Virus record (IMG/VR): IMGVR_UViG_3300030116_005755
Location: 25,828-49,930 of that record
DNA from: a virus
Strand: one strand, 5' to 3'
Length of the DNA stretch: 24,103 nucleotides
The position numbers were made by a program, and so were the translations under genes. Of this stretch, positions 3,629-20,263 are shown piece by piece. The notes below the pieces were generated by a model. It saw nothing but the letters and a program-made list of their open reading frames with translations. It did no database searches and had not been told where the DNA came from. Numbering within the stretch: the stretch's first letter is position 1; every line of letters begins with the position of its first letter.

Positions 3629-3745
3629 ATGAACTTAATTAAGCTTATCATACAATTCGTTTTATTTCTAGGATTTACTGTTTTTGTTTTTCACCTGCCC
3701 TTGGCGTGGGCTTACTTTGGAGGCATGATGAATGCAATCAATTAA
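3629..3745 (+). CDS. Small single-pass membrane peptide (38 aa)
   Basis: Reading frame starting MNLIKLIIQFVLFLGFTVFV and ending GGMMNAIN. Residues about 4-30 are almost wholly hydrophobic, enough for one membrane span or an uncleaved signal anchor. GGAG lies six bases before the ATG. An in-frame ATG at 3617 would add MEKP but has no good ribosome site. The 3' end overlaps the GIY-YIG gene by 14 bases in another frame, and GGAGG for that gene lies inside this one, which implies coupled translation. A holin-like, exclusion or anti-defence role is possible but unproven. Confidence 0.5.
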   Translation: MNLIKLIIQFVLFLGFTVFVFHLPLAWAYFGGMMNAIN

Positions 3746-4715
3746 GCGCAAACAAACAACAAGTATCCGCAAATCACCAATTTATAGTGCCAGTTACAAA
3801 CCAAGTCATCAGAAAGGTGGAATAGTTTCTATTAACCTGTGGCTTGATAATGCTGCAAACGGCAAAGGTGAAGCAATAGAAGACTTGTACAAAATTTTTC
3901 CGAAGGGACAATCTTGCGTTTATGTTCTAACCGACCCTAAAACAAAACCTCTTTATGTTGGAATGACCAGTAATTTAACACAGAGAATGGAAAATCATAA
4001 GTATACTAAGAGTTGGTTTGAAGAAGTCTCTAATGTTCTTGTTTACCCTTGTCATGAATCTTTAACAGCAAAAATAGAAAAAGAAACAATCGCTTGGCTC
4101 AATCCACCTTATAATAAATCAAACAAAAATAAAGAGGAAACATTCTTAGCACCAAATTTTCTAGAATTAGGTAATATGGATTTTCGTTTCTATGTGGAAC
4201 TACACAAACGTGATGGACACGAAAGCGATAGACCTTTCTTAGATGAAATCATGAATGACCATTTAGTGCGAAAGGCACAAGAAAAAATGCTTGCAGAACA
4301 TCAGGCAAAAGTTGAACGCTCAAAAATTTTTAGGAAAGAAAGTTTTGAAAATCGCCATAATGACCCTCTGCAACCGTACCATACAAAATACGGTGAAATT
4401 GATAAACCACGTAAGGCTCCTCCCACACTGCGTAATTACTTGATAAAATGCCGATATACAGCACCATACAATGATAACCAAATAAAATTTGCCCAAGCTA
4501 GGACTAAGAAGGAACTTGCCGAGCATGTCAAAAAATTCGGTAAATCAGAGTTTGTCCGCAAACATTTACATGAGAGACATCATGTTGCGTTTGCTGAAGG
4601 AAGATTAAATAAGTTCGATAACGAAATTGATCAGGAAATAAATTTACGATTACAAAATCTCCAAAGAGCAGGTTGGGACTTTGACATTATGCAAATTGTA
4701 AAGACTTATAGTTAA
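3732..4715 (+). CDS. GIY-YIG endonuclease-domain protein
   Basis: Protein of 327 aa. Residues about 60-128 form a GIY-YIG nuclease domain: CVYVLTD (first strand), LYVGMTSNLTQRMENH (second motif with catalytic Arg at about 85) and KIEKETIAWLNPPYN with the metal-binding Glu (116 or 118). The remaining ~200 residues are charged and helical, and their target-binding fold is not recognised. The start is eight bases after GGAGG. Its TAA overlaps the oppositely oriented portal stop by two bases, so the island is fused exactly to the end of the portal gene. It may be a homing or intron-less mobile nuclease, or act in DNA degradation. The whole inverted island could be a unit moved by this enzyme. Confidence 0.83.
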   Translation: MQSIKRKQTTSIRKSPIYSASYKPSHQKGGIVSINLWLDNAANGKGEAIEDLYKIFPKGQSCVYVLTDPKTKPLYVGMTSNLTQRMENHKYTKSWFEEVSNVLVYPCHESLTAKIEKETIAWLNPPYNKSNKNKEETFLAPNFLELGNMDFRFYVELHKRDGHESDRPFLDEIMNDHLVRKAQEKMLAEHQAKVERSKIFRKESFENRHNDPLQPYHTKYGEIDKPRKAPPTLRNYLIKCRYTAPYNDNQIKFAQARTKKELAEHVKKFGKSEFVRKHLHERHHVAFAEGRLNKFDNEIDQEINLRLQNLQRAGWDFDIMQIVKTYS

Positions 4716-6973: not shown

Positions 6974-8271
6974 TAACTTATTCTCCAAACTGGTTCACCG
7001 CTACGCTGCGATAATTCCGTGACAGCCCACACTAGAGCGTCCATTCTATCAGGTGATTTTCTTACGTTGGGCGTGTATGTAGTCATTTGATCTTCCAATT
7101 TTTTAAACTCACCAACGTGATAAACCTTGCCCTGTTCATAAAGTGCAGCCACTGGTTCTGCCCTTACCATCTTTCCACGACTTGCCCTTACAGCACTGTA
7201 TGGAACATTCCTTTCTACTGTTCTTACCACTTTCTCAACTAAATCGCCACCATTATTGACTTCTGCTATGATCCTGTCTGCTTTGTAGTGGTGAAAAGCT
7301 GCCACCGCTTCCCTTGCCCAAGCATCAGGACTGCCATGAAAGCTGTGATCAGCAAGCACATAAAAAGTACCTTCTTGCGTCCTCCCTGCAACAATAATTC
7401 CTGTCTCATCACTCTCCTCAGAGTTCGTTACCGCAGGGTCAATAGCCACTACGATCCGTTGTAAGTTTGGCATATTTTCTTGTTTAATTCTAGCCTTTTC
7501 AATCATTGTCCAAGACCACAACGCCCCATCTATGTCCTCAAGCACCTCTGCATATAGCTCTTGTCTGCCTAACCTTGTTCCCTGATATTTCTCTTGAAGC
7601 TGCTGCAATGCTGCAGGTGCAAGGTTCGCTGCATTGTCAAAAGTACTGCCTTTTGTAATGACTGCGCCCTCACGTTTAATTAGGTTTTTTATCAATGGGG
7701 TCGGCTTTGGTGTCGTTGTAATTACGACTTGTGGATTTGTTCCCAACCGTAATCCAAACATTAATTGGTCAAAAGCTTCTGGATACTGCCATGCTGCAAT
7801 CTCATCGCACCAAGCCCTATGAAATTGTGGTCCACGCAGTCGCTCTGGCTCTGCTGCGGAAAAACCTTGAATGATACTACCATTGTACAAACGTATCTCT
7901 TGGGCTGAACTGTTGTAACCTTGCCCTCTGCCCGAAAGCAAACACTCTCTCGGTAAATAAGACAGGATACCGCTTTCGCCTCCAAACGCTACCCTTTTAA
8001 GGTCTCCGAATGTCGGCACAACTACCGCAACTCTTACATTCGGGTGTTTTAGTGCATATAAAATCGCATCTACACCGCCTGTCCTAGTTTTACCCCAACC
8101 GCGCCCTGCCAAAATTAACCAGACATTCCAATCACCTTTGGGTGTTACTTGCTCTGGTCTAGCTGTGTCTATCCAATCACTGTATAATGTGGTTAGCTTC
8201 TTGTGACTTTTCCTCGGCAAGTTGATCCAACTGGTCAATAATTCTTGTGAGGCTTGTTGGGATTGAATCAT
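6973..8271 (-). CDS. terL: Terminase large subunit
   Basis: ATP-driven packaging motor and nuclease. Walker A is GRGWGKT at 56-62 and Walker B AWCDE at 153-157. The nuclease domain has acidic residues in AIDPA (Asp278), IIAEVNNGGD (Glu337) and SPDRMDALVWA (Asp408/411). The length of 432 aa is normal for this compact family. The N-terminus reading DWIDTARPEQ before the ATPase core matches the family, which supports the ATG at 8271 even though it overlaps the upstream gene by 95 bases. The stop overlaps the portal ATG by one base. It is the downstream partner of the modification genes in the same leftward transcript. Confidence 0.95.
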   Translation of the reverse strand: MIQSQQASQELLTSWINLPRKSHKKLTTLYSDWIDTARPEQVTPKGDWNVWLILAGRGWGKTRTGGVDAILYALKHPNVRVAVVVPTFGDLKRVAFGGESGILSYLPRECLLSGRGQGYNSSAQEIRLYNGSIIQGFSAAEPERLRGPQFHRAWCDEIAAWQYPEAFDQLMFGLRLGTNPQVVITTTPKPTPLIKNLIKREGAVITKGSTFDNAANLAPAALQQLQEKYQGTRLGRQELYAEVLEDIDGALWSWTMIEKARIKQENMPNLQRIVVAIDPAVTNSEESDETGIIVAGRTQEGTFYVLADHSFHGSPDAWAREAVAAFHHYKADRIIAEVNNGGDLVEKVVRTVERNVPYSAVRASRGKMVRAEPVAALYEQGKVYHVGEFKKLEDQMTTYTPNVRKSPDRMDALVWAVTELSQRSGEPVWRIS

Positions 8272-8743
8272 CTGATACTACCTGTTTAATTTCACCTGCT
8301 TCACCAAGTGCAAGTTTGCCTGCTTTCTGCGCTTTAAGCACGGTTTCCGCAATGTCTTTAAGTTCTGTTGTTGCCAAGCTATCGCTTCCTTGAGCCTGAT
8401 CTGCACGTGCCGCAGTTGTTAGTTTCCTACCGACCCTTGCTAAAATATTTTCTGCTAATGTCAGGGAAGTATCATCAAACTTGTCTGCTCTGGCTGCTTT
8501 ACGCTCTGCTCTAGCCTTAATTCGCTTTGCTTCGTATGTAGACTTGAAGCTATTGCGTTGACCTTGCCAATCATCTTCTTTTGCTCTGCGATATAATGTA
8601 GTTGACGGTATTTTGTGTTTTTCCACAAGGCTTTCCAACGTCGGATAAACCCTTATTTGATTTTCCTCATAGCCCTCAACAAACTCTAATCTGAGCTTTT
8701 CTGTGACTTTCTGATCTAGTTTGCTGTCAGAGCGAATACCCAT
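8177..8743 (-). CDS. terS: Probable terminase small subunit / HTH DNA-binding protein
   Basis: Protein of 188 aa. The N-terminal helix-turn-helix-like segment (about 15-60) includes PTLESLVEKHKIPSTTLYRRA and DDWQGQRNSF, the pattern of small terminase and transposase-like HTH proteins that read a DNA site. A basic Ala/Lys/Arg-rich middle (about 65-90) and a helical C-terminus follow. The position directly before terL is the main argument for a packaging-initiation role. AGAGG precedes the ATG by eight bases. Only 14 bases separate it from the kinase gene of the modification cassette, so both are probably on one message. Confidence 0.8.
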   Translation of the reverse strand: MGIRSDSKLDQKVTEKLRLEFVEGYEENQIRVYPTLESLVEKHKIPSTTLYRRAKEDDWQGQRNSFKSTYEAKRIKARAERKAARADKFDDTSLTLAENILARVGRKLTTAARADQAQGSDSLATTELKDIAETVLKAQKAGKLALGEAGEIKQVVSDDSIPTSLTRIIDQLDQLAEEKSQEANHIIQ

Positions 8744-8757
8744 CTGACCACCCTCTC

Positions 8758-9291
8758 TTATTTACCACTTGTTATCCATTGTAGCAATTCTTCTGCTAAT
8801 TGTACAGAATGGCTCGGTTCTGTCATATAGCGAACATCTACTTTGCCTTCAAACTCAGCCATAATGTTCTTTATTTTGGTAGCCCGACCGCGCAAAAAAG
8901 TTTCTGATTGAGTATCGTTTCTGGCGATATGTCTTGCGTGTTTTTCTTCTTCAGTAGCTGCCAATACTATTATTTTAAGATCATAGTGTTTATCTAACAT
9001 GAGAAGATTATCTTTTCCAAACAAGCGGTCTCCTTCAAAAATAATGTTTCTTTTCTTGTTAATTGCAAACTTTTGGAAATCTTTATTGACCGCCATAGAT
9101 AAACGGTCTGTCCCTAAAAATGTCCCTGAGTCATTGTATATACCTAACAACGCTGTATTTGTTTGTGAGTTTAAGTGACCTCGAAGCAAACCTTGTTTTA
9201 AATTATGTGTCGCTTTCATCTTCTTAAAAAAATGTTTCATCATTGTGGTCTTACCAGTTGCAGGTTCACCACCGACTGCTATCGCTTTCAT
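8758..9291 (-). CDS. P-loop kinase, likely 5-hydroxymethyluracil-DNA kinase
   Basis: Protein of 177 aa starting MKAIAVGGEPATGKTTMM; the Walker A loop (GEPATGKTT) is at residues 8-16. An acidic strand, IIFEGDRLFGK, follows, then a basic lid region HARHIARND. The ATG has GGAG six bases upstream and forms an ATGA overlap with the FAD gene, so the longer frame to 9369 is rejected. In thymidine-hypermodifying phages (ViI, M6 and relatives) a kinase of this class phosphorylates 5-hydroxymethyluracil in DNA, making the leaving group for amino-acid transfer. Adjacency to a transferase-like gene, an FAD enzyme and a TET/JBP oxygenase supports this. A nucleotide kinase with another substrate is the main alternative. 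Confidence 0.78.
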   Translation of the reverse strand: MKAIAVGGEPATGKTTMMKHFFKKMKATHNLKQGLLRGHLNSQTNTALLGIYNDSGTFLGTDRLSMAVNKDFQKFAINKKRNIIFEGDRLFGKDNLLMLDKHYDLKIIVLAATEEEKHARHIARNDTQSETFLRGRATKIKNIMAEFEGKVDVRYMTEPSHSVQLAEELLQWITSGK

Positions 9292-10109
9292 GCGTACTCC
9301 CCTAAAAACTTTTCTGCTAAATATGGATAAATCATTAAGCCCATTTTCCAACCTCCAGTCATTACCCAAACTCTAGAGCTGATTTTTTCTAGGTGACCCA
9401 TCTTTGGGCTGTTTGCGCTTGCACCGACATATGGACGCATTCCGAAAACTATCTGTGACGGATCGCTTAAACCGAAGTAATCATAGGCACGTGACAGGCT
9501 TTTTCCTATATAGTCCTGTTGCTTTGCCATGTAGTTTTTATGTTTGATAGCCACGCTATCGCCAAACCATATCCTGTCCTCGTCAAACTGAAACACTTTA
9601 AAATGTTTATGAGGTATTGGCATTAGCATCATTGGCTCTTTACGCCACTTGCCCTTAAATAACAGACCGTGACCAGAGAGTGAGTTCAGCCCCATTACTG
9701 GGACAAGCTTATTGCAAAACGCACCTGCACAGATAATGGTCGCACCTTTTTGAAAGCCATTGTTTTTTGTCAGTATACCATCGTCTGAAACTTCTATGGC
9801 TTTGTCTTTAATATATTCGACCAGAACATTTTTAGGTTGCACACGATAAGATTTAATTAAGTTCTTGTTTCTAAAATTTACTTCGTCAACCTTTACCGTG
9901 TCTTGTAAAATCCTTTTTGCTATATCGGCAATGTCTGTACCTAAACGCTCTGCCCATCCGAAACTAAAAATATTTTCACTGTATGGGGATGCAGCATAAC
10001 TGTTTTCTTCATCGAATATTCTTGTTTTGATATTATTTTTTCTAGCAAGCCTTTCTACAAAACTACCTGCTAAACCTGCACCAATTATATTAAGGGTTTC
10101 GGTAGACAA
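9288..10109 (-). CDS. FAD-dependent oxidoreductase/lyase of the DAO type, DNA hypermodification
   Basis: Protein of 273 aa with an N-terminal Rossmann dinucleotide motif LNIIGAGLAGS (about 6-16), a middle strand GATIICAGAFCNKLVPV and a C-terminal FAD-closing segment VWVMTGGWKMGLMIYP. This is the layout of glycine-oxidase/D-amino-acid-oxidase-like flavoproteins. Flavin-dependent lyases of thymidine hypermodification trim an amino acid attached to 5-methyluracil, and this gene sits exactly where one is expected. The start is a TTG eight bases after GGGAG; no useful ATG exists. It overlaps the transferase gene by 25 bases and the kinase by ATGA, so all three are translated together. The DNA-adduct substrate is inferred from context. 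Confidence 0.8.
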   Translation of the reverse strand: MSTETLNIIGAGLAGSFVERLARKNNIKTRIFDEENSYAASPYSENIFSFGWAERLGTDIADIAKRILQDTVKVDEVNFRNKNLIKSYRVQPKNVLVEYIKDKAIEVSDDGILTKNNGFQKGATIICAGAFCNKLVPVMGLNSLSGHGLLFKGKWRKEPMMLMPIPHKHFKVFQFDEDRIWFGDSVAIKHKNYMAKQQDYIGKSLSRAYDYFGLSDPSQIVFGMRPYVGASANSPKMGHLEKISSRVWVMTGGWKMGLMIYPYLAEKFLGEYA

Positions 10110-10873
10110 GGCTGCAACTCCCTTATATCTGGGTATTCGCTTTTTTCGATCCGCATATGCAATCGCTCTATGTCTTCACCTGCTTTGTAGTGTCCGTGAT
10201 AGTATGAATGATATTTACAGAGACAAGTTTCTATTTCCTGCATATTTATAGGTCGCGTATATTGTGGTGGTGCTAGTTCGTCCGTCACGCCACCTACTTC
10301 CAGTTGATGAATCACCTCTGCCATTGAACTGCGGTACAGATGATTACCTACATTTTTATGTTTCTGCTCATCTTCCCCTGCAACAAGCAACATACCTCTG
10401 ATCGGATATTCATAGGCTAAACGAAAATCGACGTTTTTAAAATTAAAGTTAAAACCCAAACAACAATTCAAAAGGTCAAGTATTTTCCACGCTGCCCATG
10501 GACCAATACCTTGAAATTTTTGAAGCTGCTTCAATGCAATGTTTGCATCCTGATGAACTTTGCTAAACATTGAATAGAAACCCTGATGGGCTTTGGCGTT
10601 TTGGTATAGAGCTTGCCAGAAAAATTCTGCATTGCGCTTATGTTTTCTTCTTTCGTTTCCGTAATCGACATCTTCAAAGGTTTTGTTATGCAGCATAAAC
10701 TCTAGCTCACCTATAGAGTTATAGATTACGCTCTTCACAGCTATCCATTTTGCCTTTACCTCTTCACCCCAATCCTTTTGGTCACAAACATTATTGATAA
10801 ATATATAATCGGGGTCTAAGTCACCGCTTGTAATGAGCACTCTACTAAAATCCGCAAAATTTAGTTTTGTCAT
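10085..10873 (-). CDS. Alpha-GPT-PPlase-like amino acid:5-hmU-DNA transferase
   Basis: Protein of 262 aa that looks like a DNA-glycosylase-fold enzyme. A helix-hairpin-helix-like motif, LQKFQGIGPWAAWKILDLL, lies at about 117-135, preceded by RRKHKRNAEFFWQALYQ. A C-terminal element ETCLCKYHSYYHGHYKAGED follows at about 215-234. These features match the alpha-glutamyl/putrescinyl-thymine pyrophosphorylase group (clade 2), which joins amino acids or amines to phosphorylated 5-hydroxymethyluracil in DNA. The ATG overlaps the amidotransferase-like stop (ATGA). It is the strongest sign that the oxidised base here is thymine rather than 5-methylcytosine. Recognition is from motif pattern only, without a search. 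Confidence 0.75.
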   Translation of the reverse strand: MTKLNFADFSRVLITSGDLDPDYIFINNVCDQKDWGEEVKAKWIAVKSVIYNSIGELEFMLHNKTFEDVDYGNERRKHKRNAEFFWQALYQNAKAHQGFYSMFSKVHQDANIALKQLQKFQGIGPWAAWKILDLLNCCLGFNFNFKNVDFRLAYEYPIRGMLLVAGEDEQKHKNVGNHLYRSSMAEVIHQLEVGGVTDELAPPQYTRPINMQEIETCLCKYHSYYHGHYKAGEDIERLHMRIEKSEYPDIRELQPCLPKPLI

Positions 10874-11478
10874 GGCTTGGTTTCCTCAAACCCTTCAACA
10901 AACTGATATGCCATGTATCCGTTTTTTTCTGTAATACGGTAATGATGACCTGCCTCACAAAGCTTTGGAAAAATTGTTATCTCTGACTCTGCAAAGCTAT
11001 CTTTTCTGGTCGTCACCCAACAACAGTTGTCATCATCTTCATAATCATACCAAAGGTGTTTGTAGCCATTGCGGAAAAAGCCAAGCTCTGCGCCTTCTCT
11101 CTCATTCAAGATCATTGCACAGGAAATCGGTTCGTTAGGGAATACTTGCAAAGGGTGCAAATCAAGATCAAAAGTATTTAAAATTGATTTAGTATGAACT
11201 TCTGCCTCATGCGCTATGGCATAATCTTCCCCTGACATTGGATAATTATATGCAAAATCACCCATATAATGTCGACAATGTGCAAGTATCAAAGGTGTAT
11301 CGACGTTTCCTAATTCAAAAAGATCGTTTTTCTCCGCATTTTTAACACTTCTGATTTTTTTATCTTCAAACCAACTGATTGTAGTCTCTTGGCTGTTTTC
11401 CATAGATTGCAGGAGAAGCTTACGAAACGTAATCATATCTACACCATTATGGTTAAAACCTGCAATGACTGCACACAT
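10870..11478 (-). CDS. Class-II glutamine amidotransferase-like (Ntn) protein of the modification cassette
   Basis: Protein of 202 aa beginning MCAVIAGF. Removal of Met would expose Cys2, the N-terminal nucleophile of class-II glutamine amidotransferases. Further family-like elements are LILAHCRHYMG (Arg69), NYP at 78-80 and AIAHEAEV at 87-94, which line up with the usual GHTRW ... NAHP ... HNG glutamine-binding series. The domain is shorter and divergent, with no synthetase domain attached. It may release ammonia from glutamine, or handle a glutamine-derived group, for the modified base. The ATG follows GGAAG and shares one base with the dioxygenase stop. The fold assignment is moderate and the role inferred. 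Confidence 0.6.
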   Translation of the reverse strand: MCAVIAGFNHNGVDMITFRKLLLQSMENSQETTISWFEDKKIRSVKNAEKNDLFELGNVDTPLILAHCRHYMGDFAYNYPMSGEDYAIAHEAEVHTKSILNTFDLDLHPLQVFPNEPISCAMILNEREGAELGFFRNGYKHLWYDYEDDDNCCWVTTRKDSFAESEITIFPKLCEAGHHYRITEKNGYMAYQFVEGFEETKP

Positions 11479-12419
11479 TAGTTTACTTCCGCGTTTAACC
11501 CTTTTAAATCTTTACGGCTTTTTACAAGTTGTAATTCATTTTCTGCGCTGCCGCATTTAAACATATTTTCTCTATAATAACTTACGATGGAAATACGCTC
11601 ATATGGTGCTTTGGCTTTTATCTCTAAATTACCATGCCACTCATGCACATTGAAAAAACAAACATCGGTATTTCTTACGTCAAATCCAATTCTGTATCTA
11701 GGCAGACAGGTAAAACCACCAGAAAATTGACCTGCTTGTAAGACTGCTAAATTACCTAAACCACCTTTGTAATCACCTTGATCGGTATGGATTGCTGTCC
11801 TAAAGTTTTTGTTTACCGTCACTGTAGTAAAAACAGTTTCACCGATGAGGAAATCTTTATTGGTTTGTTGCGCGACTGCATTCTGTGCCTCCCATCGTTC
11901 TGGGCAAGCTTCTTTAAATAAATCTGAAATCTTTTTAATATATGGATAAGCTTTTCTAAATTGGTCAAAATTTTTCTCTGTCCATGCAGTTTGACGGCAA
12001 TAAGGAAATCTTACTGTCCGATCAAAAAAACCTATGATGCCACTATCGACTGTTTTGGCTCGCATCGTTTTAGAAATATAGCCTTCCTTAGTTACCGTCT
12101 GGTATCTAGTTTTTGTCTTTGCGCTCACTTGCATATTTTTTTGAGCGACATCTTCAGTAATGTCGAACTCACCTGCTGCGTTTCCCCTGTTATTGGTTGG
12201 GGTCGCGGCATGCCGTAAAACACCATAAGCTTGTTTGCATAGTGCTGCAGGTATTACGTTTTTCCTAAACATAAAAAGTGGATTGCCCTCATCATCGTAT
12301 GCATCACAATCATAGTCGATAATGTGGTCTATTTCTTTTTCGTTTATAAGAGACCCTGCACGCTCTGACCATTCCTCAAAAGTCCCATACGCTTTCGCGT
12401 CATACTGTTTTATACTCAT
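11478..12419 (-). CDS. TET/JBP-family 2-oxoglutarate/Fe(II) dioxygenase
   Basis: Protein of 313 aa. The double-stranded beta-helix core carries the iron triad: FRTAIHTDQGD supplies His211 and Asp213, and NVHEWHGN the distal His (262 most likely). Arg275 in YERISIVSYYREN is the expected 2-oxoglutarate contact. The order HTDQGDY ... LGNLAVLQAG ... GGFTCLPRYR ... FFNVHEWHGN is typical of phage TET/JBP proteins, which hydroxylate the 5-methyl of thymine or 5-methylcytosine in DNA. With a kinase and transferase of 5-hmU chemistry next door and no cytosine methyltransferase, thymine is the likelier target. The ATG follows a GGCGG-type site and overlaps the ParB-like gene by 20 bases. Confidence 0.88.
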   Translation of the reverse strand: MSIKQYDAKAYGTFEEWSERAGSLINEKEIDHIIDYDCDAYDDEGNPLFMFRKNVIPAALCKQAYGVLRHAATPTNNRGNAAGEFDITEDVAQKNMQVSAKTKTRYQTVTKEGYISKTMRAKTVDSGIIGFFDRTVRFPYCRQTAWTEKNFDQFRKAYPYIKKISDLFKEACPERWEAQNAVAQQTNKDFLIGETVFTTVTVNKNFRTAIHTDQGDYKGGLGNLAVLQAGQFSGGFTCLPRYRIGFDVRNTDVCFFNVHEWHGNLEIKAKAPYERISIVSYYRENMFKCGSAENELQLVKSRKDLKGLNAEVN

Positions 12420-13017
12420 TTTCTACCGCCTGATAAACTGTATCTGTGACATTATCTATACCATACTTTTCTTGTAATTTGGTACACATTTCACGAAACT
12501 TTGGTTCAGTTTCTGTAGTTAAATAGAGTAAAAACATTTTTACGTGACTTTTCTCTAAACCTTCAAGTTCTTCGAAGTTAACCTCTTCTAATTCTTCAAC
12601 ATCATCTGCAAATTCTAAAAGCTCATCACCTGCTAATTTTGTAATTTCATCTAAATCAAAGCCAGTTAATTGTAGGTCGAAATCTAATTCTTTTAAGGCA
12701 GCAAATTCCTCTTTGAGCAACTCCTTGTCCCATTCAGCAAGCTCAGAAGTTTTGTTATCTACAATGCGGTAAGCTTTCTTTTGCGCCTCACTGAGCCCCT
12801 CTGCCGTGACTACTGGAACTTCTTTCATACCAAGTTGCATAGCCGCTAAATGTCTTGTGTGACCTGCTAAAATTATTTTGTTTTCATCAACGACGATCGG
12901 CTGCTGCCACCCATACTCTTGTAAACTTTCTGCAACCTTTTCGACGGCTGCTGAGTTATCACGTGGATTTGATTCATATGGGGTGATTGCTTCAATTTTA
13001 GTATTTTTAACTTTCAT
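12400..13017 (-). CDS. ParB/Srx-fold N-terminal domain protein heading the modification operon
   Basis: Protein of 205 aa. Residues 1-95 form a ParB-like domain: ITPYESNPRDN, VAESLQEYGWQQPIVVD, then IILAGHTRHLAAMQLG with the GHTRH box at about 52-56. An acidic linker (about 125-155) and a small C-terminal domain with FLLYLTTETEPKF follow. No methyltransferase is fused, and the HTH of chromosomal ParB is absent. Such proteins occur in phage TET/JBP and hypermodification neighbourhoods, where they may guide or license modification; nuclease or CTPase activity is also possible. It is the first gene after a strong leftward terminator, so transcription of the cassette probably begins just upstream. 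Confidence 0.8.
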   Translation of the reverse strand: MKVKNTKIEAITPYESNPRDNSAAVEKVAESLQEYGWQQPIVVDENKIILAGHTRHLAAMQLGMKEVPVVTAEGLSEAQKKAYRIVDNKTSELAEWDKELLKEEFAALKELDFDLQLTGFDLDEITKLAGDELLEFADDVEELEEVNFEELEGLEKSHVKMFLLYLTTETEPKFREMCTKLQEKYGIDNVTDTVYQAVENEYKTV

Positions 13018-19363: not shown

Positions 19364-19393
19364 CATAATTACAAAAAAGCAATGGAGGTAAAT

Positions 19394-20263
19394 ATGCTAG
19401 ATTTTTGTAACTTCGCAAACAAAGCCAATGATTGGAATTTTCCAGTTGAGGAAAAGCCATTGACCGTAGAGGGTGTTGGTAAAGTTGAGGGCAAAAAAGC
19501 CCTAGTCAGAACTGACAACAATACGATTGTTGGTGTTCATTCCGATAACTACAAAGTGTTGAACCATGATGATGTGGTTAACGCTCAATACGATGCCGTA
19601 AAGCAAGCAAACCTATCAAGTGACTTTGAGTTTAAAGTTACCTGTCTTGAAGGTGGTAAGAAATTATCCATCAAGGTCATGTTTCCTGATTTGACTATAG
19701 AGCCTATGGTTGGTGACATAGTAAATTATGAATGGAATGCTTTTAACAGCTATGACGGTATGTGGGCTTATCAGGTTGAGGCACAAGGTAATAGGTTAGC
19801 TTGTAAGAACGGAATGGTGTCCCCAACAATGCTAAACAGAATTTGGGCAAAGCACACTTCCTCAATCAATGTTGTTGGCACTGCCGAGCATATGCTGAAG
19901 TCCGTAGAAGTATTCAAGAACCATCGTGAAGAATGGAAGCATTACAATACAGTACGATGCGACTCAGGTAGAGTTGAGGACTTCTTCAAAGGCAATGTTG
20001 TAAATTACGGCAAAGGCTTGAAGACCGTTGAAGATAATTACAACAAGAAACAATTATCTGCTTTGGTCAATCATTATGGTGATTACTCTCGGTCTTTAGG
20101 AAATACAAAGTGGGCTGTTTATAATGCTCTTACACATTGGTCTACTCATTGTGAGGATACCGCAGTACCAGAAATCACTGCACGTTACAGACAAGACCGC
20201 GTAGTGAAGGCAATGAAAAGCAAAGCTTGGGATGATATCCATAAGCATAGGTTCGCAGCTTAA
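19394..20263 (+). CDS. DUF932-family phage/plasmid protein
   Basis: Protein of 289 aa beginning MLDFCNFANKANDWNFPVEE. Family features are ALVRTDNNTIVGVHSDNYKV near the N-terminus, the central NSYDGMWAYQVEAQGNRLACKNGMV and an Asn/His/Trp-rich C-terminus (NTKWAVYNALTHWSTH). DUF932 proteins are frequent on phages and plasmids next to recombination genes; their function is unknown. The ATG at 19394 follows GGAGGTAAAT; an in-frame ATG at 19382 lies before that site and is rejected. It is transcribed alone or with the small HTH gene after it. Confidence 0.83.
   Translation: MLDFCNFANKANDWNFPVEEKPLTVEGVGKVEGKKALVRTDNNTIVGVHSDNYKVLNHDDVVNAQYDAVKQANLSSDFEFKVTCLEGGKKLSIKVMFPDLTIEPMVGDIVNYEWNAFNSYDGMWAYQVEAQGNRLACKNGMVSPTMLNRIWAKHTSSINVVGTAEHMLKSVEVFKNHREEWKHYNTVRCDSGRVEDFFKGNVVNYGKGLKTVEDNYNKKQLSALVNHYGDYSRSLGNTKWAVYNALTHWSTHCEDTAVPEITARYRQDRVVKAMKSKAWDDIHKHRFAA

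Follow-up and report, generated by a model that had tools for sequence, protein, structure and literature searches.

A TET/JBP dioxygenase cassette in a phage genome as a candidate pathway for thymine hypermodification in DNA

Introduction

In kinetoplastids, thymine (T) in DNA is oxidized to hydroxymethyluracil (hmU) by JBP1 and JBP2 and then glucosylated, which yields base J. In phage PaMx11, an amino acid:DNA transferase (ADDT) and a flavin lyase together form the route to 5-aminomethyl-deoxyuridine (5-NmdU). Phage modification operons containing a TET gene were reportedly predicted by Iyer in 2013 (cited in PMC6449724), and cytosine hypermodification by a phage TET together with a C5-methyltransferase is said to have been described by Burke in 2021. 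A five-gene cluster of Rhodococcus phage Tonitrus has been annotated as serving thymidine hypermodification (PMC11955845). Here we describe a six-gene cassette with a TET/JBP dioxygenase on IMG/VR virus record IMGVR_UViG_3300030116_005755. It lies in a stretch of 24,103 nucleotides, bases 25828-49930 of the 49,930-bp record, which is called the window below. Gene content and homology suggest that this operon encodes a pathway for the post-replicative hypermodification of thymine, with the TET/JBP dioxygenase standing in for a dUMP hydroxymethylase that acts at the nucleotide level. We put the probability of this reading at about 0.72.

The cassette and its enzymes

Six leftward open reading frames (ORFs) of this marine-type phage are arranged head to tail at 8758-13017 of the window, each overlapping or abutting its neighbor:

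12400..13017, minus strand: protein with a ParB N-terminal domain, first in the cassette (PF02195, 7.4e-8; phrog_620 ParB-like, 1e-54)
11478..12419, minus strand: TET/JBP Fe(II)/2-oxoglutarate (2OG) dioxygenase (PF12851, 8.9e-21; fold and invariant HxDxxD, H262 and R275)
10870..11478, minus strand: class II glutamine-amidotransferase-fold protein with a degenerate active site (homolog alignment, profile and Foldseek)
10085..10873, minus strand: ADDT (aGPT-PPlase2), putative glycinyltransferase (PF18724, 7.5e-13; PDB 25qc and 8z2m)
9288..10109, minus strand: DAO-family FAD enzyme, putative flavin-dependent lyase (PF01266, 1.9e-7; PDB 8z2o)
8758..9291, minus strand: P-loop kinase, putative 5-hmU-DNA kinase (Walker A GGEPATGKTT; PF18751, 9e-5)

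Coordinates, Pfam, fold and profile matches thus bear out the overlapping leftward genes and the enzyme identities that an earlier note, made from the letters of this DNA, had proposed. The same cassette is present in a related record, L002 (relatives are given by L numbers). The ratio of nonsynonymous to synonymous polymorphism (pN/pS) is 0-0.08 in every gene, which indicates purifying selection on all six and argues that the arrangement is not due to chance.

The proposed pathway would start with the oxidation of T in phage DNA to 5-hmU by the TET/JBP dioxygenase, perhaps guided by the ParB protein. The hydroxymethyl group would then be phosphorylated by the P-loop kinase. Judging from a solved homolog named glycinyltransferase, the ADDT may let glycine displace the phosphate, giving N-alpha-glycyl-T. 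The DAO enzyme, which has a solved homolog named flavin-dependent lyase, may oxidatively remove the two-carbon part and leave 5-NmdU. The end product is probably this known base. The earlier suggestion that the base may be new is thus unlikely, because the combination of ADDT and flavin lyase is the one used in PaMx11.

The dioxygenase scores 74-76 bits with PF12851 (cut-off 34.9), and the HxD motif (H211, D213), the distal H262 and the 2OG-binding R275 are invariant in 22 aligned sequences. Its AlphaFold2 model has a predicted local distance difference test (pLDDT) score of 87.9 and finds NgTET1, CMD1, TET2 and CcTet as top PDB fold matches in Foldseek, in keeping with a double-stranded beta-helix of the TET/NgTET1 kind, so that the assignment to TET/JBP in the earlier note agrees with both profile and structure. 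A phmmer search of the protein alone against PDB gave no TET match, and profile and fold comparison were needed. The PHROG label 'queuine tRNA-ribosyltransferase' for this protein was rejected as a weak cross-hit.

A ParB gene adjoins TET in most relatives that have the upstream gene in view, as well as in Microbacterium phage Margaery and in L136, and is the first gene of Tonitrus, one gene ahead of TET. No methyltransferase domain was found within the ParB protein of the window, which we propose to be a DNA-binding or targeting factor. A reading of the cassette as a defense system was dropped, as the sole PADLOC match is to the ParB part of a methyltransferase model (MTase_II).

The protein at 10085-10873, described in the earlier note as alpha-GPT-PPlase-like, indeed matches the corresponding profile (PF18724) with 49.2 bits against a cut-off of 26.2. 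Its best PDB match is 25qc, 'Amino acid:DNA transferase' (2.3e-19), followed by 8z2m, 'Glycinyltransferase' (5.3e-11). Its phage matches belong mostly to the M6/YuA group, with PaMx11-type proteins among them too. For the DAO protein the best PDB match is 8z2o, 'Flavin-dependent lyase' (1.4e-11), and the phage matches are PaMx11/Ab18-type phages and similar ones, whereas the match to ThiO glycine oxidase is weak and below the cut-off. The printed sequences of 8z2o and 8z2m agree, as far as printed, with PaMx11 gp47 and gp46. The DAO protein shares GAGLAG and GxRP (R225) with gp47.

The kinase has a clear Walker A motif and could be aligned with the kinases PaMx11 gp49 and Tonitrus gp7, although its Pfam match (Ploopntkinase3) is below the cut-off. 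Its start is probably the ATG at 9291 and not the TTG at 9369, because the former forms an ATGA overlap with the DAO stop and gives a product of 177 amino acids, like close homologs (175-178). The PHROG label 'terminase small subunit' for the kinase was rejected, since the PaMx11 kinase carries the same label and a separate gene precedes TerL. PHROG 800 and the records of PaMx11 and M6 appear to mislabel the modification kinase in this way (window 8758-9291; L054:8284-8853, PaMx11 gp49).

Thymine or 5-methylcytosine as substrate

Neither a C5-methyltransferase (PF00145) nor a ThyA-family thymidylate synthase or dUMP hydroxymethylase (PF00303) nor ThyX/Thy1 (PF02511) was found in the 49,930-bp record. 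The first two results answer the full-genome survey proposed in the earlier note and, like the ADDT profile match, favor T as the substrate. PF00303 is present in PaMx11 and M6. A search with the window TET collected 48 related virus records, many of them fragments and ten longer than 25 kb, and none (0/48) contains PF00145 or PF00303. Both families were also not found in the complete Pelagibacter phage HTVC112P, in L059, L061 and L062, or in Tonitrus, Margaery and P12024L. The relatives of the TET of Methylophilales phage Melnitz, which is 22% identical to the window TET and adjoins an HhaI-type methyltransferase, served as a control clade. Among 71 relatives, an adjacent C5-methyltransferase is present in all 58 loci with more than 1.3 kb upstream, compared with none of the 35 window-type loci with equal upstream room. 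This contrast is the best evidence for thymine, or at least for a substrate other than phage-made 5-methylcytosine (5mC).

The Melnitz locus itself (L053:4010-8090) comprises the HhaI-type methyltransferase, TET, a 427-amino-acid protein without a Pfam match, and a P-loop kinase that also occurs in some relatives (L067, L069, L120). It is likely a cytosine counterpart of the pathway, leading from 5mC to 5-hydroxymethylcytosine (5-hmC) and its phosphorylated form.

Several observations weigh against thymine oxidation followed by conversion to 5-NmdU. D216 of the HxDxxD motif and R283, which sits eight residues after the 2OG arginine, align with Asp350 and Arg418 of CMD1 (TET2 was also aligned). 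In CMD1 these residues bind N4 and O2 of 5mC, and docked T is unfavorable (PMC7854593). R283 had been considered as a thymine-specific donor, but this was dropped because the same pair of Asp and Arg occurs in CMD1, which acts on 5mC. D216 does not discriminate between the window-type and the Melnitz-type clade, being invariant in each. All solved top matches from the TET family are 5mC (or 6-methyladenine) enzymes. Characterized phage TETs reportedly act on 5mC, according to Burke in 2021, and we know of no phage TET that oxidizes T. The Melnitz clade joins a related kinase to TET and a C5-methyltransferase, so that a kinase of this family does not by itself point to T. Moreover, the DAO and ADDT proteins are only 23-25% identical to their PaMx11 counterparts, and no HMUDK_hel gene was found in the record, the sole signal being a weak cross-hit of the ADDT. 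The P-loop kinase named in the earlier note is thus present, but it lacks the helical domain partner that characterizes the 5-hmdU DNA kinase of PaMx11 and M6.

One alternative is a cytosine route, in which TET would act on host-made (or unrecognized phage-made) 5mC and the kinase, ADDT and DAO would decorate 5-hmC. It is the strongest of the rival readings, yet we regard it as unlikely. It accords with the D216/R283 match to CMD1, with the joint occurrence of C5-methyltransferase, TET and related kinase in Melnitz-type phages, and with the frequent fusion of ParB proteins to methyltransferases (phrog_498), to which the MTase_II match over the ParB part may be added. However, the C5-methyltransferase, present beside TET in 58/58 loci of the cytosine-type clade with room for it, is lacking from this genome and its 48 related records, the nearest kin of the ADDT and DAO are found in thymidine-modifying phages, and 5mC made by the host would be sparse and vary from host to host. 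T rather than 5mC is the putative substrate: genomic context favors T, while the active-site residues do not. Of the earlier proposal that thymine is modified within DNA, what stands is that it best explains the gene content and the homology and gene order shared with PaMx11 and M6; it draws no support from the TET active site.

Downstream modules of related dioxygenases

Different modules follow closely related TET genes. Glutamine amidotransferase (GAT)-GNAT-ADDT-kinase is found in L003-L010, L030-L034 and L039, a kinase alone in L011-L017, and a TET-associated glycosyltransferase (PF20691) in L018-L023. An N6/N4-type methyltransferase-ADDT-kinase set lies by TET in L024, L025 and L035-L038, and other arrangements exist. 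ADDT-DAO-kinase accompanies three separate TET lineages (window/L002, L059 and L061/L062), for which supported branches of the TET tree force at least three changes. The set also occurs at L135:2696-6951, in a different order (ParB-ADDT-DAO-kinase-TET); this contig is assigned to a Parcubacteria metagenome-assembled genome and is probably a phage or prophage contig that was binned with it. The recurrent assembly of TET, ADDT, DAO and kinase supports a shared pathway.

In L011-L017 and Margaery (L057:1-2161) the order is ParB-TET-kinase and the terminase genes follow the kinase directly; the end product in these phages could be phosphomethyl-uracil in DNA. A similarly truncated pathway in the window, with hmU or phospho-hmU made by TET and kinase as the end product and the ADDT and DAO serving elsewhere, e.g. 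in small-molecule metabolism, is improbable. The retention of only ParB-TET-kinase in these close relatives and in the actinophage would agree with it, as would the missing HMUDK_hel. However, the ADDT is under the strongest constraint in the cassette (pN = 0), and in several lineages ADDT and DAO accompany TET and kinase as a pair.

In L018-L023 (e.g. L020:10942-11721) the TET is 69-71% identical to that of the window and the PF20691 glycosyltransferase is next to it. A kinase and a C5-methyltransferase were not found in these records, of which that of L021 is 46 kb long. These phages are candidates for glycosylated 5-hmU, a phage analog of base J. The N6/N4-type methyltransferase by TET (L024:1305-1976, L038:10942-11625 and relatives) is permuted and has TPCY in place of motif IV, (S/N/D)PP(Y/W); it might methylate a pyrimidine or an adduct.

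The chances are about even that the window belongs to an entire clade of phage dioxygenases acting on thymine in DNA, prokaryotic equivalents of JBP whose downstream tailoring modules can be exchanged. These modules would then be glycine transfer with flavin lyase (window), GAT-GNAT-ADDT-kinase, kinase alone (phosphomethyl-U) and glycosyltransferase (base J analog).

The amidotransferase-like protein

The product of 10870-11478 has no Pfam match of its own, but its homologs match GATase_6 and the family profile matches the glutaminase domains of PurF and GlmS. Its AlphaFold2 model (pLDDT 83.5) matches PurF, GlmS and EgtC in Foldseek, and it combines the Ntn fold with the N-terminal cysteine (conserved Cys2) of class II glutamine amidotransferases. 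Cys2 is retained in the window and L002, whereas the RGxHxTG, NG oxyanion and ND(T/S)E glutamine-binding motifs are gone and about 20 residues are deleted. The motifs are intact in L004-L007 and largely so in L030-L039. At 0.075 its pN/pS is still low but exceeds that of the other five genes (Fisher p 0.03 vs the rest), and the gene is absent from the ADDT-DAO cassettes of L059, L061 and L135. This protein thus weakens the view that all six genes form a single, inseparable pathway.

The window TET nests in a clade that otherwise has an intact GAT-GNAT-ADDT-kinase module (support 100/95). In the simplest history, an M6/PaMx11-like ADDT plus DAO took the place of GNAT and the former ADDT, and the GAT then ceased to act as a glutaminase. 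The protein would then be a leftover of the neighboring cassette type, either catalytically dead or re-employed, and a structural or other role is possible. That it follows the flavin lyase with the transfer of an amide or amine, and so makes a new base, is the least probable alternative: its intact gene, purifying selection and Cys2 would be in keeping with such a role, but it has lost its glutaminase motifs and about 20 residues, lacks a synthetase partner domain, is the least constrained of the six, and is dispensed with in sister cassettes.

The genome record

The ends of the record share a 97-bp direct terminal repeat, a pattern expected of a complete, circularly assembled genome. The record is therefore probably complete; it has a few N letters in its left half. 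Genes for a replication protein, ERF, SSB and terminase are ordinary phage genes. One of them follows the kinase, outside the pathway:

8177..8743, minus strand: terminase small subunit, named from its position directly before TerL

This gene has no significant Pfam or PHROG match of its own and is kept after the kinase in most relatives. A scan for promoters and terminators gave signals no more frequent than in shuffled sequence. An ORF with a GIY-YIG domain, possibly a homing endonuclease, lies on the opposite strand beside a portal-like gene (3732-4715, plus strand), and a DUF932 protein (5e-17) is encoded in the rightward gene block (19382-20263, plus strand).

Significance

TET-containing phage operons had been predicted before, and the Tonitrus cluster was already annotated as thymidine hypermodification. 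New here are the joining of the flavin-lyase branch to TET, the methyltransferase contrast (0/48 vs 58/58), the exchange of modules and the decay of the amidotransferase. The cassette joins two known kits of parts and makes thymine oxidation by a phage TET directly testable, and TET clades with and without a C5-methyltransferase would form a clean pair for studying discrimination between T and 5mC. If the proposed pathway is correct, phages hypermodify thymine while leaving the nucleotide pool as it is, which would permit partial or sequence-targeted modification, perhaps through ParB. The in-DNA oxidation of thymine familiar from kinetoplastid JBP would then extend to phages, and the cassette would provide a compact, expressible enzyme set for writing 5-aminomethyl-dU into ready-made DNA.

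Comparison with known systems

The gene order of PaMx11 is ADDT-DAO-GNAT-kinase-HMUDK_hel-ThyA, that of the window TET-GAT-ADDT-DAO-kinase. ADDT, DAO lyase and P-loop kinase are common to both and in the same order. PaMx11 has a ThyA-like dUMP hydroxymethylase, HMUDK_hel and GNAT, all three of which are lacking in the window; the window has TET and ParB, and no TET occurs in the PaMx11 stretch that was read. Because of the shared order, the window looks like a PaMx11 module with TET in place of ThyA. Tonitrus shares ParB, a TET-like protein, aGPT-PPlase2 and kinase with the window, and C5-methyltransferase and ThyA were likewise not found in its genome. However, it has no DAO, a very remote TET (Pfam match just below the cut-off) and an extra gene 8. 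The Melnitz-type system resembles the window in the TET/JBP fold, the invariant HxDxxD, the distal histidine, the arginine and a nearby kinase, but its C5-methyltransferase is always adjacent (58/58), which is never so in the window type, and TET identity is about 22%. The base J system corresponds to the proposed pathway in that T in DNA is converted to hmU and then decorated. The decoration of base J is glucose, unlike that predicted for the window, whose relatives L018-L023 carry the TET-associated glycosyltransferase instead of a kinase.

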